From an uncultured Bacilli bacterium (lineage in GTDB: Bacteria; Bacillota_I; Bacilli_A; RF39; UBA660), in contig CALVSV010000101.1 in NCBI GenBank assembly GCA_944359595.1, positions 1 through 12,725 on the forward strand: DNA of 12,725 nucleotides, written 5' to 3'. Positions 3,080 through 12,725 of this stretch are shown here, in pieces (the stretch's first letter is position 1; every line of letters starts with the position of its first letter). The notes under the pieces were generated by a model. That model saw nothing but the letters and a program-made list of their open reading frames with translations. It ran no database searches and had not been told where the DNA came from. A program made the translations under genes and the position numbers.

Positions 3080-3691
3080 ATGGGAAGGAAAACAATTAAA
3101 GATAAGTTGCTTGATATTATGAAACGAAACAATGGATTTATTACAACAAAAGAAGCTGCAAAAAATGGTATCTCAAGAGAGCATTTATCAAAACTTACAC
3201 AAAAAGGAATAATTGAAAGAGCAAGAATAGGGGTTTATAAGCTTTCTGATATTGATAATGATGCTTGTTATATATACCAAATAAAACATCCACCAACAAT
3301 AGTTTCACATTTGACAGCAATGTATTATCATGGTTTTTTAGATGAAGAACCTAAAAATATTGACTTTACAGTATACTCTAAATATACAGATGATAGAAGA
3401 GATGAAAAAATTAAATTACATTATGTAAGTTATGATATACATGATTTTGGACTTACTAAAATTAAAACTAATTTAGGTAATGAAGTTGTTGCATATAATG
3501 TTGAAAGAAGTGTATGCGATATAATAAAATCAAATACTAAAATTGATGAAAGGCTATTTTATGTAGCGCTTAAAAATTATTTTGATAGCGAAATATGCGA
3601 TTTAAAAAAATTAAGGGAATATGCAAAAAAGTTGGGGTATACTAAAAAGGTTGAAAAATATATAAAAATTTATTGTGGAGAAAAAGTCTAA
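3080..3691 (+). CDS. AbiEi-family antitoxin / transcriptional regulator (solitary)
   Basis: This 203-residue soluble protein has the AbiEi layout. An N-terminal winged helix-turn-helix occupies about 6-55, with 'FITTKEAAKNGIS' leading into 'REHLSKLTQKGIIERA' and a 'GVYKL' wing. The C-terminal AbiEi domain contains 'SHLTAMYYHGF' at 76-86 and 'VERSVCDIIK' at 141-150. In type IV toxin-antitoxin/abortive infection systems AbiEi represses its own promoter and counteracts AbiEii, a nucleotidyltransferase toxin encoded just downstream. Here the downstream gene is an RNA methyltransferase and no nucleotidyltransferase is present, so the protein is an orphan in this window. It may act as a stand-alone regulator, partner a remote toxin, or be a remnant of a defence locus. 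The Shine-Dalgarno GAGAGGTG lies 7 nt before the ATG. Terminators on both sides make it a self-contained unit. Family call is good; the biological role is open. Confidence 0.85.
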   Translation: MGRKTIKDKLLDIMKRNNGFITTKEAAKNGISREHLSKLTQKGIIERARIGVYKLSDIDNDACYIYQIKHPPTIVSHLTAMYYHGFLDEEPKNIDFTVYSKYTDDRRDEKIKLHYVSYDIHDFGLTKIKTNLGNEVVAYNVERSVCDIIKSNTKIDERLFYVALKNYFDSEICDLKKLREYAKKLGYTKKVEKYIKIYCGEKV

Positions 3692-5293: not shown

Positions 5294-5716
5294 ATGAATC
5301 TTATAAATTTTTTAGTAGAAACGGAAGGATTAGGAGAAACAATAAAATTTTGTGAACATTATAGTGTTTTAACTGTATTTTATTTTATAAAACAAATAAT
5401 TACTTTAGTAAGTATATTTGTTCCAATTGTGCTTATTATAATGATGGGTGTAGATGTTTTAAAAATAGTTATATCTGGAGATGTATCTAATGAATTTAAA
5501 AAATCTGGATCTATTATGATAAAAAGAACAGTGATGGCTATAGCTTTTTTCTTAGTACCAATTGTTATAAGTTTAGTCGCGCAATTAATAGGGTTTGTTA
5601 ATTATGATGCATCAAAATGCTGGACTGATGCAAATAAAGAGACGATTACAAGATTAAAAGATGAGCAAAAAGCACAAGCAAACGAACAAACACAAAGTAG
5701 TGAAGAAAATAATTAA
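5294..5716 (+). CDS. Small two-helix membrane protein, TrbC/VirB2 (Mbov_0395-like) pilin-like
   Basis: This is a 140-residue protein with two hydrophobic helices, about 34-60 and 79-102, separated by a polar basic loop holding 'SGD' (61-63) and several Lys/Arg. Long hydrophobic helix, Gly-Asp turn, basic loop, second helix is the pattern of VirB2/TrbC-type conjugative pilins and of the Mbov_0395-type pilin-like proteins of low-GC Gram-positives. By the positive-inside rule the loop is cytosolic and both ends face outside. Each outside segment carries one cysteine (C20 and C109), the only two in the protein, which could form a disulfide. The C-terminal 30 residues are Gln/Glu/Asn-rich and probably disordered. 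There is no separate cleavable signal peptide. The gene sits 20 nt before a signal peptidase gene, notable because TrbC-type pilins are matured by S26-family peptidases. No other secretion-system genes are in the window. The membrane call is strong; the pilin relation is inference. Confidence 0.6.
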   Translation: MNLINFLVETEGLGETIKFCEHYSVLTVFYFIKQIITLVSIFVPIVLIIMMGVDVLKIVISGDVSNEFKKSGSIMIKRTVMAIAFFLVPIVISLVAQLIGFVNYDASKCWTDANKETITRLKDEQKAQANEQTQSSEENN

Positions 5717-6451: not shown

Positions 6452-9400
6452 ATGAAGAATAAAAAAGTTATATTTGGTATCATATTATTCTTGCTAATAG
6501 GTTTAACAATATTTACTTTTGCAAATCCTAGTGAAAATGAAAAAACGTTTGAGGATGATGAAAGACAAGAAGAAAAAGTAGATGATAGAACTGATGACAA
6601 GGATAAGAAAGATGATGAAGATAGTATCACTGATGAAAATAATGAATCAAATCAAAATAATAACATAAATGATGATACAAATAATAGAAATGTTACTAAT
6701 AATACTTCTACAATTAATAGAGGATCAACAAGCAGTGTTGTTAGTAGTAGTTCAAATAAATATGATGAAGCCCTAAAAGCGGTAGAAAAGGCAGAATCTA
6801 CATTAGCTCAAGGTGATGTTGATAGCGCACAAGATCTAGTTGATGATTTAGAAGATAATGAAGAAACTAGTGATTTAAATGATAGATTAGAAGCTGTTCA
6901 AAAGATAATCGACGCAACAAGATTAGTCGCAACGCTTGAAGACAAAAAGAATAATGCAAAAACTATAGATGATATTAATGACGCCAGAAAATATAATAGT
7001 GATGAAAAAATATCTGATGTTGTTGCTGCACTAACAAATGGCGATATAAAAACAGATTTACTAAATCGTTTAAATGCAGTTTTAAAGATTTTAAATGACA
7101 CTACACCTGCTATAGTTAGTGGAATTGATAAAGAGTTTACTAATAAGGATGAAGTAGTATTAACTATTAGTGATGAAAATTCATTTAATGCTACACTAAA
7201 TGGTAAAGAATATAATAGTGGGGATAAAATAGTGGATGAAGGTAGTTATGAATTAGTAGTAATTGATAGTGCATTTAATACTGTTGCAAAAAACTTTACT
7301 ATTGATAGAACAAAACCTGAAATAACTATAGAAGCTAATAGTAATGTGGTAGATGATACAGTATATTATAATTCTAAAGTTATACCAACTATTATAGAAA
7401 ATAATATCGATACTATTACACTAATTAAAGATGGAGAAGAAATATCATATAATATGGGTGAAGAAATAGGCGAAGATGGTAGTTATGTATTAACTGTTGT
7501 TGATAAAGCAACTAACACAAGTAGTGTTGAGTTTGTTATTGATACAACAATTCCAGGTCTTTCAAATATTTATAATGGAAAAATAGTTGAAGGTGGAACT
7601 ATTGAAGCTAGTGATACTAACTTCTATTATATGACTATTAAAAACTTAATGACTAAAGAAGAGAAAACAGTGTATGAAGATACATATACATTGCCAGATA
7701 TTGATGCTGACAATACAATATATGATATATATGTATATGATAAAGCAATGAATAAAAGCGAAAGAGTGCGTATATATCATGATAATCAAGATCCTGTAAT
7801 AACTGGAACTGGATTAATTGGTGAAGATAACAAAACTATAAAAAATAATGGTACATATAAATCAGTAAGTTTAAAAATAAGTGATGGAAGTCTTAAGAGT
7901 GTTGTAAGTGTATCTGGTAGTGATGAAACAATTTTAGAAGAATACAGTGATAATTATACTGATCAAAAAATTGTGTATGAAAATACATTTACAGAAGATG
8001 GTACATATACTATTAAAGCAATTGATAGAGTAGGACGTGAAAGTGTTATAACATTTACAATAGATAAAACTCCTGCAAGCATTAAAGCGTCTAACATATT
8101 AGTATCAGGAGATCCTAATGAGCAAGAAGGCGGAATTTATTATGCAAAAATAGGTGATGTTATTGAAGCTTATGTTAGATTTAGTGAAGAGTTGAATTCT
8201 ATTCCAACATTTACATTACATAATAATGGTAATGAATACGTTATAGATAGTGAAGATGTAATTGTTAATGAAAATGATGCTGGTGAATTTACTTATAAAA
8301 TTTTATATGAAATAAAAGAAGATACTAAGATGACTGATGGTCAAATAACATTTACTGTATCAGACATATATGATTGTGTTTTAAATAAAACTGATGATGT
8401 TACTGATGTAACAAATGGACATAAAGTATTTTTAGATATTAGTAAACCAACTGCAAAATATGTTGCTATACTAAACAATACACCATATAAAGATGGGGAT
8501 TACAATTACATAACTAATGGTGATGTTGTTCGTGTTTTAATAGAATTAGATGAACAAATATATATACCAGAAAATCTTGATGAATCTAGTTTTGTGCTTA
8601 AAATAAACGGTGATGAAACTAAATTTATGAGATCTGGTGACACAAAACATGGTGATGGTAGTGAAAAATATGAATATATTGCTCAATATACTATTCCTGA
8701 AGATGAGGCTGAATTAGCAGAAGGAGAAATTACGTTTGAAATTAGTGGATTTACTGATTTAGCAGGTAATATTGGAGATAGTATTACTAAACCTAATCAT
8801 ACACAATTTAATTCATTAATTTATGATAAAAATGCACCAGTATTTGAAGGTGCAAATAAAACAATGGAATCAGATGTTACAATTAATGTAAATGATGTTA
8901 GCTTAGATAAAATTGTTGTTACAGATAAAACTAATAATACTACTACTGAAGTAGAAAATGGTTATGTTTTAAGTAATGAAGGATTTTATAAGATTGTTGC
9001 ATATGATAAATTTGATAGAAGTACTACTTGGAATTTAACAATAGATAATAATGCACCTATTATTACTATTGAAAATGCTAAAGAAAACAATTATTATAAT
9101 GGTGGTGTAATAATAAATATAGATGATTTAGAAGTAAATCAAGTATATTTAAATGATGAAAGAATGGGACGCATTAATACTCTTACTGTAAGTGAAGAAG
9201 CAACTTATACTGTATGGGCAAAAGATAATTTTGGTCATGAATCAGAAAAAGTTACATTTACAATAGATAAAACTCCTATAGAAGTAAAAGAAGGTTCTGT
9301 AACAATATTTAACAGAACAAACTATGAAAATGGTAATTATAAATATGCAAAAAACGGTGATAAACTATCTATATTAGTAACATTTACAGAAGAAGCTTAT

Positions 9401-11092
9401 ATACCAGAAAATCTTGATGAATCTAGTTTTGTACTTAAAATAAATGGTGATGAAGTTAAATTCGTTAGATCACAAGATACAAAATATAGTGATGGTAGTG
9501 AAAAATATGAATATATTGCTCAATATACTATTCCTGAAGATGAAACTGAATTAACAGAAGGAGAAATTACGTTTGAAATTAGTGGATTTACTGATTTAGC
9601 AGGTAATACTAATGCTGTTATTAATAAAGCTGATAATGAAAAATATAATAGTGTAATATACGATAGAACTCCTGCATTAACAAATGATGATTCGAATCCA
9701 TTATATATATTAAATGTAAGTGATTCTAGTAGACGTAAATATATTAAAGATGGTCAAACATTAAGAGTTGAGGCTAATTTTAATGAAATGCTAGTAGAAA
9801 ATCCAATTCTTACGATAGGAGATAAACAAAGCTCTACATTCAAATATAGAGGTAGTAAAGATGGAAAATATACTTATGTTGCTGATATAACAATTGATAA
9901 TGAAAAAGCTAATTTAAAAAATGAAGAAATTATTCCATTTACTATTACTAATATAATAGATGTTGCGGGAAATGAATCAACATTAAATAACGATAATGTT
10001 ACTGTAGCTGGTAATTATGGTCAAGTAATATATGACAATTCTGTTGGGGAAGTTACATTCTCAAGTAATGGTGGTTCAACTGTAGCAAAAGAATTTGTTG
10101 TAACTGTAGATGTAAAAGAAAAATATATAGATAAAATATATTATATGTTTACTACAAAAAACAAAAAAGATGATGTCATTAAAAAATTTAACAATAACGA
10201 AGGTATAGAAATTACAAATCATGACAGTGGTAAATTTACTGTTTCTAAAACTAATGCAACTAACAACTACTTTTTATGGGTAAAAGTTGTTGATATGGCT
10301 GGAAATGTAAGTTATACTAGAACTCGAAATAAATTTAAATTAGATAATACTTATCCTGATGTTAAAATAACTACATCAAATAATGGTCAACCTACTGATG
10401 AAGTTGTAACTGTAACTTTAAAAGCAAACGAAGAAATTAAAGAACTAAATGGATGGACTAAAGTTGATGATAAAACATATACAAAAGTATATAGTGAAAA
10501 CTATAGTGGTAGTATATATGTAGAAGATAAAATTGGAAATGGTGTAAATGTTGATTATGCTGTTACTGGAATAGATAAAGTTAGTCCTACAATGACTGTT
10601 GTTGATAAAAATAGATATTATATTGAAGCAGGAAGTGAATATGTGGATAAAGGTTATAGTGCAATTGATGATGTAGAAGGTGATATAACATCACGTGTAG
10701 AAAAAACTTACCAATTTCAAAAAAGAGGAAGTAATAATTGGGAAGTTGTTCCAACAATAGATACTAAAAATGTTGGTACATATAAAATAACTTATACAAT
10801 TTCTGATTTAGCTGGAAATAGCGCTAAAGATGATAGAGTTGTAGCTATAAAAGATGAAACAGCTCCTGTAATTTCAATAAATACTTTAGTTAAACTTAAA
10901 GTTGGAGATAAGTTCATAGAAGATATATATGATAATATAAGTGATAATTCATCTGATACGTTAAAAGTTGAAATTTATCCTGGTACTCCTATATTAGATA
11001 TAACTACTAAAGGTGTGTATAGTATAAATTATAAAGTTTCAGATGGTGCTGGAAATTATGATGTAGAAACAAGAAAAATCATTGTTGAATAA
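6452..11092 (+). CDS. Giant exported protein with about 13 Ig-like modules, no wall-anchor motif
   Basis: This 1546-residue protein begins with a typical export signal: NKK, a hydrophobic core at 6-23, and a possible signal peptidase site after A24 ('TFA|NP'). An acidic, Asn/Asp/Glu-rich low-complexity stretch runs from 25 to 102. Two helical repeats of about 55 residues follow (104-155 and 156-216), each ending in a motif like 'RLEAVQKI' or 'RLNAVLKI'. From about 217 to the end there is a chain of beta-sandwich Ig-like modules, with boundaries marked by 'IDKTP'-type linkers near 284, 363, 444, 537, 662, 792, 864, 938, 1071, 1195, 1298, 1375 and 1468. Most are about 75-95 residues; those at 537, 662, 938 and 1071 are longer (125-135) and related. 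The module at 1375-1467 looks like DUF5011 (G-YVDKGYSAIDDVEGDIT, GTYKITYTISD-AGNSA). The protein stops at the last module, without LPXTG, C-terminal helix or repeat anchor. A surface stalk or adhesin role is inference. Confidence 0.85.
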   Translation: MKNKKVIFGIILFLLIGLTIFTFANPSENEKTFEDDERQEEKVDDRTDDKDKKDDEDSITDENNESNQNNNINDDTNNRNVTNNTSTINRGSTSSVVSSSSNKYDEALKAVEKAESTLAQGDVDSAQDLVDDLEDNEETSDLNDRLEAVQKIIDATRLVATLEDKKNNAKTIDDINDARKYNSDEKISDVVAALTNGDIKTDLLNRLNAVLKILNDTTPAIVSGIDKEFTNKDEVVLTISDENSFNATLNGKEYNSGDKIVDEGSYELVVIDSAFNTVAKNFTIDRTKPEITIEANSNVVDDTVYYNSKVIPTIIENNIDTITLIKDGEEISYNMGEEIGEDGSYVLTVVDKATNTSSVEFVIDTTIPGLSNIYNGKIVEGGTIEASDTNFYYMTIKNLMTKEEKTVYEDTYTLPDIDADNTIYDIYVYDKAMNKSERVRIYHDNQDPVITGTGLIGEDNKTIKNNGTYKSVSLKISDGSLKSVVSVSGSDETILEEYSDNYTDQKIVYENTFTEDGTYTIKAIDRVGRESVITFTIDKTPASIKASNILVSGDPNEQEGGIYYAKIGDVIEAYVRFSEELNSIPTFTLHNNGNEYVIDSEDVIVNENDAGEFTYKILYEIKEDTKMTDGQITFTVSDIYDCVLNKTDDVTDVTNGHKVFLDISKPTAKYVAILNNTPYKDGDYNYITNGDVVRVLIELDEQIYIPENLDESSFVLKINGDETKFMRSGDTKHGDGSEKYEYIAQYTIPEDEAELAEGEITFEISGFTDLAGNIGDSITKPNHTQFNSLIYDKNAPVFEGANKTMESDVTINVNDVSLDKIVVTDKTNNTTTEVENGYVLSNEGFYKIVAYDKFDRSTTWNLTIDNNAPIITIENAKENNYYNGGVIINIDDLEVNQVYLNDERMGRINTLTVSEEATYTVWAKDNFGHESEKVTFTIDKTPIEVKEGSVTIFNRTNYENGNYKYAKNGDKLSILVTFTEEAYIPENLDESSFVLKINGDEVKFVRSQDTKYSDGSEKYEYIAQYTIPEDETELTEGEITFEISGFTDLAGNTNAVINKADNEKYNSVIYDRTPALTNDDSNPLYILNVSDSSRRKYIKDGQTLRVEANFNEMLVENPILTIGDKQSSTFKYRGSKDGKYTYVADITIDNEKANLKNEEIIPFTITNIIDVAGNESTLNNDNVTVAGNYGQVIYDNSVGEVTFSSNGGSTVAKEFVVTVDVKEKYIDKIYYMFTTKNKKDDVIKKFNNNEGIEITNHDSGKFTVSKTNATNNYFLWVKVVDMAGNVSYTRTRNKFKLDNTYPDVKITTSNNGQPTDEVVTVTLKANEEIKELNGWTKVDDKTYTKVYSENYSGSIYVEDKIGNGVNVDYAVTGIDKVSPTMTVVDKNRYYIEAGSEYVDKGYSAIDDVEGDITSRVEKTYQFQKRGSNNWEVVPTIDTKNVGTYKITYTISDLAGNSAKDDRVVAIKDETAPVISINTLVKLKVGDKFIEDIYDNISDNSSDTLKVEIYPGTPILDITTKGVYSINYKVSDGAGNYDVETRKIIVE
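8562..8770 (+). repeat. Ig-like module duplication, copy 1
   Basis: These 209 nt recur 837 nt (279 codons) downstream with about 17 mismatches by hand count. The copies encode the same core beginning 'YIPENLDESSFVLKINGDE' and ending 'SGFTDLAGN'. The middle and the end, including stretches of more than 40 nt, are identical also at silent positions. Confidence 0.9.
9399..9607 (+). repeat. Ig-like module duplication, copy 2
   Basis: This is the second copy of the 209-nt block at 8562. Differences cluster in a short middle stretch (residues after 'KINGDE'), while flanks are nearly identical. This suggests recent duplication or gene conversion within the surface protein gene. Confidence 0.9.
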
Positions 11093-11135: not shown

Positions 11136-11146
11136 TGATATATAAT
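11136..11146 (+). promoter_or_regulatory. Candidate -10 region for the 31-residue repeat protein gene
   Basis: TGATATATAAT contains TATAAT at 11141-11146, or TG-A-TATATA as an extended -10 at 11136-11144. No -35 resembling TTGACA lies at the proper distance; that position falls in the preceding terminator. The leader would be only about 13-15 nt, with a modest ribosome binding site GGGTGAT at 11153-11159. Confidence 0.4.
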
Positions 11147-11165: not shown

Positions 11166-12725
11166 ATGATTAGTGAAGAACAACTTAGGATGGTATTAAA
11201 AAATAATAGTAATATATCAGCCGAATTTATAAACAGATTTTTAAAAAAGAAAATAAAATCAGTATATAACTTAGGAAGAATAGAAAATATAGAAGAAATA
11301 ATAGAACTACTAAGTAAATATAATATGGTATGTTTGCTTGAACAATGTCCATATATATTAGCTCGAGGTAATGTTAATAATATAGAAAAAACAATAAAGC
11401 TATTAAGTAAATATAATATGCTAAGTTTGCTTGAACAATGTCCAACTATATTAGCTCGAGGTAGAATTAGTGATATAGAAAAAATAATAAAACTATTAAG
11501 TAAATATAATGTGGTATATTTACTTAGTCAATGTCCAACTATATTAGCTCAGGGTAATGTTAATAATATAGAAAAAACAATAGAGTTACTAAATAAATAT
11601 AATATGCTAAGTTTGCTTGAACAATGTCCATATATATTAGCTCAAAGTAATTTTAATAATATAGAAGAAATAATAGAATTATTAAGTAAATATGATATGG
11701 TATATTTATTTAACCAATGTCCATATATATTAGCTAAAGGTAAAATTGATAATATAGAAAAAATTATAGAGTTATTAAATAAATATAATATGGTAAGTTT
11801 GCTTGAACAATGTCCATATATATTAGCTCGAAATAATTTTAATAATATAGAAAAAATAATAGAGTTACTAAATAAATATAATATGCTGTCTTTGACTTAC
11901 CAATGCCCAACTATATTAGCTAAAGGTAATTTTAATAATATAAAAAAAATAATAGAGATATTTCAAAAAAATGATATTTCATTGAATAAATTGAAAGCAG
12001 AATATATTTTTAATTATAATTATATATATAATATATTTAATTTAGAAAGAAGTAATATGAATGATAAAGAATATTACAAATATTGTAAAGTATATTTAAA
12101 ATTAATAGATGAATATAATAAATTATTAAATGTAGATGATATAAATAGATTGTCTAAAAAATTAAATATAACAAGTGATGAGTTTATTAAATATATTCTT
12201 GTTTATAATAAAGATGGAATTATAAATAACATAAATAACAATAAATATATTTGGTTTGGAGATATGATACCAATTGATAAATATAATATGAATAAATATA
12301 GTAAAGAAATATTAGAAGTATTAAAAATTGTAGTAGAATATATTTCAAAAACTTATAATTTTTATTTGGGTAATTCATGTATTTATGATTATGCATACGA
12401 CATACTAATAAATAAGTGTGGAGGAATATTTATTAATTGTGATGATAGTATATTATTAAAGAATACATTAATTAAATATTTGTCAAAAAGTTGTAAAAGT
12501 TTAATTAATAATAAATCGATTGAATTGGCAAAAATAAGTAACTATTCAAAATATTCTCATAATGATACATATACAGAAGATTATGCATTTATAGAAAAAT
12601 ATGCATATCTTAGTTGGGAGGAACAACAATTTATGTTGATAATGTCTAAATGTATAGAAAATAAAAAAAATTATATACATATTTTAATGAATAGATTTTT
12701 ATATACAGAAGATGAAGTGAAAAAT
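11166..12725 (+). CDS. 31-residue tandem repeat protein, mTERF-like solenoid (3' end outside window)
   Basis: The frame is open from the ATG at 11166 to the last base: 520 residues seen, no stop. Residues 1-40 form a helical N-terminal cap. Seven full 31-residue repeats cover 41-257 and a degenerate eighth covers 258-288. The unit contains 'NIEKIIELL', then 'KYNM', then 'QCP-ILA', then a short variable turn. Two helices per unit, an invariant Pro, a Leu three residues later and another Leu 17 residues after the Pro resemble mTERF motifs (PF02536), which build nucleic-acid-binding superhelices in organelles. The C-terminal half (from about 289) is Lys/Asn/Tyr/Ile-rich, has a helix-turn-helix-like stretch near 325-343 ('INRLSKKLNITSDEFIKYI') and is otherwise unrecognised. 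There is no signal peptide or membrane helix, so it should be cytosolic. The ATGs at 11158 and 11162 are out of frame. The gene is certain; the mTERF relation and any nucleic-acid binding are inference. Confidence 0.75.
   Translation, partial: MISEEQLRMVLKNNSNISAEFINRFLKKKIKSVYNLGRIENIEEIIELLSKYNMVCLLEQCPYILARGNVNNIEKTIKLLSKYNMLSLLEQCPTILARGRISDIEKIIKLLSKYNVVYLLSQCPTILAQGNVNNIEKTIELLNKYNMLSLLEQCPYILAQSNFNNIEEIIELLSKYDMVYLFNQCPYILAKGKIDNIEKIIELLNKYNMVSLLEQCPYILARNNFNNIEKIIELLNKYNMLSLTYQCPTILAKGNFNNIKKIIEIFQKNDISLNKLKAEYIFNYNYIYNIFNLERSNMNDKEYYKYCKVYLKLIDEYNKLLNVDDINRLSKKLNITSDEFIKYILVYNKDGIINNINNNKYIWFGDMIPIDKYNMNKYSKEILEVLKIVVEYISKTYNFYLGNSCIYDYAYDILINKCGGIFINCDDSILLKNTLIKYLSKSCKSLINNKSIELAKISNYSKYSHNDTYTEDYAFIEKYAYLSWEEQQFMLIMSKCIENKKNYIHILMNRFLYTEDEVKN
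11286..11936 (+). repeat. Seven tandem 93-nt coding repeats
   Basis: Each unit is exactly 93 nt (31 codons) from AAT-ATA-GAA to the next, with no indel among the seven. Parts are almost identical in DNA, such as a stretch of about 37 nt shared by units 2 and 4 (ending TTGAACAATGTCCA). Because the unit is a multiple of three, gain or loss of units keeps the frame. Confidence 0.93.

Follow-up and report, generated by a model that had tools for sequence, protein, structure and literature searches.

A candidate transcription initiation factor with an mTERF-like tandem-repeat array and a sigma-factor-like C-terminal half in a Bacilli bacterium

In this study, we analyzed a 12,725-nucleotide stretch of DNA from an uncultured Bacilli bacterium (contig CALVSV010000101.1; hereafter the window), whose last gene encodes a protein with an array of tandem repeats resembling mTERF motifs, followed by a half with sigma-factor-like features (Table 1). 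We lean, without great conviction, towards the reading that the product of this gene is a sequence-specific, stand-alone factor for transcription initiation, in which the array would pick the site and the sigma-like module would recruit RNA polymerase. The reading frame runs from position 11145 and is still open at the contig end, its ATG having been assigned by homology with relatives with complete starts, which begin at the equivalent position. The gene is truncated by the contig end: the same last 42 residues are also encoded by 126 bases at the end of another contig, C39 (bases 5373-5498), whose frame carries on for 19 residues outside the window and then reaches a stop; C39 probably neighbors the window contig. 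No own-genome copy was found beyond the gene itself and its C39 tail, and the genus is represented by this one genome in the searched set. A scan for promoters and terminators 5' of the gene gave nothing above expectation.

Table 1. Features of the repeat-protein gene of the window and, in the last line, a protein of G054 with a related C-terminal domain
Feature	Coordinates	Strand	Basis and remarks
Repeat protein gene	11166..12725	+	520 codons up to contig end; start by homology
N-terminal cap, residues 1-38	11166..11279	+	Alignment; found in complete-start relatives; P0018 equivalent aligns with MTERF1
Seven 31-residue mTERF-like CP-ILA units, residues 39-255	11280..11930	+	Tandem Repeats Finder (TRF), anchor spacing; variability highest at unit positions 25 and 29
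Solenoid closing part and start of C-terminal half, residues 256-299	11931..12062	+	Boundaries by eye
Winged-helix-like segment, residues ~300-364, ends ..YIWF	12063..12257	+	P0018 model secondary structure; mapped by alignments
Sigma region-2-like helical segment, residues ~371-452	12276..12521	+	P0018 fold, relatives' profiles; mapped by alignments
Sigma region-4-like helix-turn-helix (HTH) segment, residues 482-520	12609..12725	+	Completed on contig C39; relatives' fold and profile
HTH-like-repeat protein of G054	L048:7877-10021	-	Related sigma-like C-terminal domain

The array has seven CP-ILA anchors spaced by exactly 31 residues and was detected by TRF as a 93-bp repeat in 7.3 copies (11286-11962, score 862), the 186-bp double period scoring higher (960). 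The initial annotation had described seven exact 31-residue units; their number and spacing stand, but the units are regular rather than identical, with pairwise identities of 61-84% (mean 70%). Its comparison of a Pro, a Leu at Pro+3 and a Leu at Pro+17 with the mTERF pattern was followed through 171 units of the window protein and its relatives, some of them near copies, in which the Pro is kept in 164, the Leu at Pro+3 in all 171 and L, I or V at Pro+17 in 167; this count covers units with 31-residue spacing, the other 45 of 216 extracted units, from nine proteins with other or irregular spacing, having been dropped. The mTERF motif is defined by Pro8, Leu11 and hydrophobic residues at 18 and 25 in the main text of Hu et al. 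(PMC11417379). The hydrophobic residue expected at Pro+10 in eukaryotic mTERF proteins is found here at Pro+11, as Ile, Pro+10 being mostly E, N or K in the 171 units.

The mTERF resemblance suggested by the initial annotation was not found by profile in the window protein itself, which has no match to Pfam mTERF (PF02536) at E<=10, and whose array alone has no mTERF among the 25 Pfam families listed. It was found in relatives, where the array of G391 scored 49.9 bits (cut-off 23.1) and its unit-shuffled control had no mTERF match, although the P0001 array and G083 had no Pfam mTERF match either. At E<=1, PF02536 was matched by two of the 17 members of alignment A1, and unrelated families also match these repeats; array matches to BTB, ALS_ss_C, DUF3791 and BACK were read as spurious short within-repeat matches summed over copies. 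Comparison of CP-ILA units with 35-residue bacterial mTERF units by hhalign stayed within the null, with no direct profile link, whereas two groups made from the 35-residue units, compared as a positive control, reached 99.6%. The model of the window protein (predicted local distance difference test, pLDDT, 69) weakly matched assorted solenoids, with none titled mTERF or sigma among the matches listed. Units have mostly three helices both in this model and in that of the relative P0018, whose predicted fold is a three-helix repeat solenoid with an N-cap and repeats that match MTERF1 best in the PDB, MTERF4 also being among the fold matches. The 50 Foldseek rows listed for P0018 comprise three mTERF, 32 sigma or polymerase and 15 other entries, none with an E-value <0.001. 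In a second list of 50 entries for this model (VIA), 46 are by title mTERF, sigma or polymerase/transcription complex entries and two more are mitoribosome chains. Many rows are copies of the same few proteins. The initial interpretation is partly supported, in that the mTERF resemblance holds in relatives, by fold and partly by profile.

The C-terminal half had been called unrecognized, which is correct insofar as no match to Pfam Sigma70 region 2 or region 4 was listed for this domain, but its equivalent in P0018 has a predicted sigma-factor-like fold. A sigma relationship had been suspected from the alignment before the P0018 model, in region 2 (..DLYDYVLDxLxNxCG..) and region 4 (LTxEEQxFL..LTxxEVxxxIxxIRxKI). 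In the VIA list for P0018, 32 of the 50 entries are sigma or polymerase-initiation entries; they fall on residues 212-397, where no other listed entry falls. Five single-domain fits gave 2.4-3.8 Å over 76-82 residues; in two-domain fits the root-mean-square deviation was mostly >20 Å, which we read as a different hinge, and the region-2-like and region-4-like folds stand in sigma order in the model. Between the array and region 2 the model has a strand-helix-helix-helix-strand segment that may be a winged helix. By profile, the region-2-like columns compared with sigma region 2 scored above 100 of 100 column shuffles, locally and globally, and region 4 compared with sigma region 4 above 95 (local) and 99 (global) of 100; the reference set had 14 sequences of sigma type (four via Pfam Sigma70_r4_2 and the other 10 from the own genome; 13 for region 4), not all of them proven sigmas. 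Comparison of the whole C-terminal domain with the own-genome sigmas by hhalign yielded nothing. The sole weak Sigma70_r4_2 row (0.056) belongs to P0021 and lies in its HTH repeats. Neither NCBIfam nor PHROGs gave informative matches to the P0018 C-terminal half, PHROGs gave none to that of the window protein, and PADLOC matched neither protein, with a weak GajB row (0.069) for P0021. The own genome, a metagenome-assembled genome of 1.19 Mb, has nine frames above the Sigma70_r2 cut-off, several of them sporulation-sigma-like by eye.

Variation within the arrays is unevenly distributed. Among 820 within-protein pairs (95 units of six arrays taken from genome DNA only, G405 having been left out because it nearly duplicates G329), variability peaks at unit positions 25 and 29, with non-synonymous differences in 584 and 657 pairs, respectively. 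Non-synonymous versus synonymous pairs number 0 versus 185 at C23, 66 versus 298 at P24, 0 versus 0 at L27 and 31 versus 302 at G30, variability in the loop formed by positions 23-30 being mainly at 25 and 29; outside the loop, positions 15, 20, 21 and 22 vary in 49-61% of pairs. The two loop positions flank I-L-A in P-x-I-L-A-x-G, position 25 being mostly T, S or Y and position 29 mostly Q, R or K (44% K/R/H, 6% acidic). TALE and PPR repeats follow a two-residue recognition logic, which this pattern resembles; positions 25 and 29 may face DNA. Summed over the arrays, charge is close to neutral, which favors neither side of the charge criterion set in the initial annotation.

A contig scan across genomes with the single window protein as query found no match, and a protein search identified 17 relatives among 7999 candidates scored. 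The C-terminal domain is present in 16 of these, the other (P0015) being an irregular mTERF-like protein that lacks it. Searched against whole genomes, the alignment of relatives matched six of 193 family genomes and 14 of 385 order genomes, own genome included. In 12 of the 14 carriers the C-terminal domain was matched; G405 ends at a contig break, and G393 was matched in the array part only. In G028 (L050:543-2197, - strand; overlap of 4 bases) and G083 (L039:7164-9613, + strand; internal stop in the C-terminal match), the array and the C-terminal domain are split between two successive frames. Across the class, profile A2 of the C-terminal domain hit five of 395 genomes, namely the own genome, G035 and three that were rejected as false (methionyl-tRNA synthetase-like frames, named by eye), and one scan of viral contigs with A3 found no match. 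Units are spaced by 31 residues in most relatives and by 29, 32 or 33 in a few, and CP-type units number from one (P0017) or two (P0018, from G214) up to 26 (G329). Three genomes have the gene flanked by those for RNase J and an SRP54-type GTPase (Pfam), with two units (L074), 11 units (L073) or two tandem genes of 21 and 16 units (L072); therefore, repeat number differs widely at one place. No recurring partner gene between genera was seen by eye over the flanks fetched. In G304 (L041:1-4780, + strand), two family members, the second in two overlapping frames, sit on the two sides of a gene judged ATPase-like by eye, an arrangement that may be mobile.

These genomes also bear on the question of bacterial relatives of organellar mTERF proteins, as PF02536 was matched at E<=1e-6 in 13 of 186 sampled family genomes (repeat length of these proteins unchecked) and in one of 392 sampled phylum-wide, that one also of the same family. 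Three scanned 35-residue bacterial mTERF proteins of the family matched Pfam mTERF at 4e-25, 2e-35 and 6e-39. Such proteins occur at L100:5676-6764 (-), L098:641-1480 (+) and the ends of L101 and L102, and their genes adjoin hisS/aspS-like genes (G208 C37, G220 C74) or precede a nusB-like gene (G393), as named by eye. A further G393 protein (L049:8091-10562, +) has an mTERF-like start followed by ~20 Pro-less 30-residue units (EIEEIIEVCRENNIEITGSVF..) and no matched sigma-like domain, and is possibly closer to pTERF1.

A related C-terminal domain stands behind a different tandem array, of 73-74-residue units, in G054 and P0019-P0021 (A1 profile match to G054, E 8e-7; 16-18% identity to the window protein in alignment A2). 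These units, six in G054, P0019 and P0020 and three in P0021, weakly match HTH families (HTH_26, Xre-like) and PHROG regulators. An effector domain paired with two distinct arrays of DNA-binding type suits a locator plus effector design.

In the initiation factor that we favor, an N-terminal mTERF-type helical solenoid would bind along DNA, as analogy with pTERF and mTERF proteins suggests, and the two variable residues of each repeat would help to select the site. The winged-helix-like, sigma-70 region-2-like and region-4-like part would contact RNA polymerase, transcription beginning adjacent to the site of the array, which we infer would direct promoter choice. Its stronger form, a natural protein-programmed sigma factor in which a two-residue-per-repeat DNA code aims the sigma module and lineages retarget it by repeat gain and loss, is a tentative possibility. 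The region 4 sequence signal is weak on its own, because its wrong pairing with sigma region 2 scored above 98 of 100 shuffles locally (80 globally); the converse wrong pairing, region 2 with sigma region 4, scored above 59 locally and 84 globally. A sigma-like domain too diverged for Pfam would also suit an mTERF/pTERF-like DNA-binding regulator, a roadblock, terminator or repressor whose sigma-derived domain does not initiate and serves DNA binding or dimerization; PMC7909791 describes a plant protein of this kind, mTERF5, as binding double-stranded DNA and acting in pausing. We judge such a regulator unlikely, although it merits serious attention, as the region-2-like plus region-4-like stretch recurs in nearly all carriers, as a separate frame in two.

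A role in RNA binding akin to that of MTERF4 or plant mTERF proteins, in the assembly of ribosomes or the processing of RNA, would agree with MTERF4 among the P0018 matches and with the location beside RNase J and SRP54-type genes. However, that neighborhood was not seen by eye in the other flanks fetched, a sigma-like domain would be unexpected in such a role, and the two pTERFs tested in the main text of PMC11417379 bind DNA, making this explanation improbable. More doubtful still is a protein-binding helical solenoid (a PPR/TPR/HEAT-like scaffold, possibly host-directed), with the mTERF and sigma likeness being generic helical similarity. The arrays are near neutral in overall charge, profile A1 matches designed PPR chains (9e-8) and the first model matched assorted solenoids; against this stand the titles of the P0018 matches, the shuffled-array control and the confinement of loop variability mainly to two positions. 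No PPR family was among the rows shown, and the units, of 31 residues and mostly three helices, differ from the 35-residue two-helix PPR motif. The host-directed role raised by the initial annotation found no support in any analysis, signal peptides and secretion not having been searched for.

Each half of the protein is of a known kind. Bacterial mTERF-like DNA binders, the pTERFs, have already been published (Hu et al., Nucleic Acids Res 2024, PMC11417379); according to its main text, they share tandem three-helix mTERF-like repeats in bacterial metagenome-assembled genomes, mostly of Bacillota, and pTERF1 binds ACTNNNAGTC with a Kd (dissociation constant) of 1.87 nM. They are set apart here by published description rather than sequence comparison: pTERF1 lacks the Pro8/Leu11/Leu18/Leu25 pattern, whereas the present units keep the Pro and the Pro+3 Leu, and the word sigma has no occurrence in that main text. 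The architecture fits theirs, DNA binding here being putative. Eukaryotic mTERF proteins (MTERF1, MTERF3, MTERF4) resemble P0018 in N-cap and repeat fold and the present units in the Pro, Leu (+3) and hydrophobic (+17) pattern, but the window protein is bacterial, missed by PF02536, built of exactly spaced 31-residue tandem units and attached to a sigma-like domain. Sigma-70 factors (ECF, primary, WhiG) share the ordered region folds and the region-2 profile signal, but here the sigma-like regions follow a winged-helix-like segment and a repeat array, and Pfam Sigma70 does not match. Chain C of the RNA-guided transcription complex 9n9q is among the P0018 matches (residues 220-394, row 29); both would add a DNA locator to a transcription complex, RNA-guided there according to the entry title and here proposed to be an array within the protein chain itself. 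TALE repeats are near-identical and helical, with 33-35 residues and two adjacent variable residues; the present units, like those of TALE/STAR proteins, have two most-variable residues, but these are four apart in 31 residues, and no TALE family was among the rows shown in family scans. No published sigma/repeat fusion was found among the titles and abstract starts listed, subscription papers and preprints being sparsely covered, and it is the fusion of mTERF-like array and sigma-like domain that we rate as new. If the favored reading is true, a modular DNA-reading protein that targets RNA polymerase directly has evolved in bacteria, and in this gut bacterium transcription would start wherever the repeats bind; this would offer a new programmable promoter tool, a naturally evolved analog of engineered TALE activators and, with protein as the guide, a parallel to RNA-guided transcription systems.

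The 5' neighbor of the gene in the window (6452-11092, +) encodes a 1546-residue protein with bacterial immunoglobulin (Ig)-like domains (Bact_surface_Ig-like 9e-16) that looks secreted by eye. On C39, the tail of the repeat protein is followed by a 249-residue frame of no assigned family and then by a class II tRNA synthetase gene. Elsewhere in the window, a gene for a short alanyl-tRNA synthetase-like protein of 585 residues (1226-2983, +) adjoins a deoxynucleoside monophosphate (dNMP)-kinase-like gene (609-1229) and one for an AbiEi-like regulator (3080-3691).
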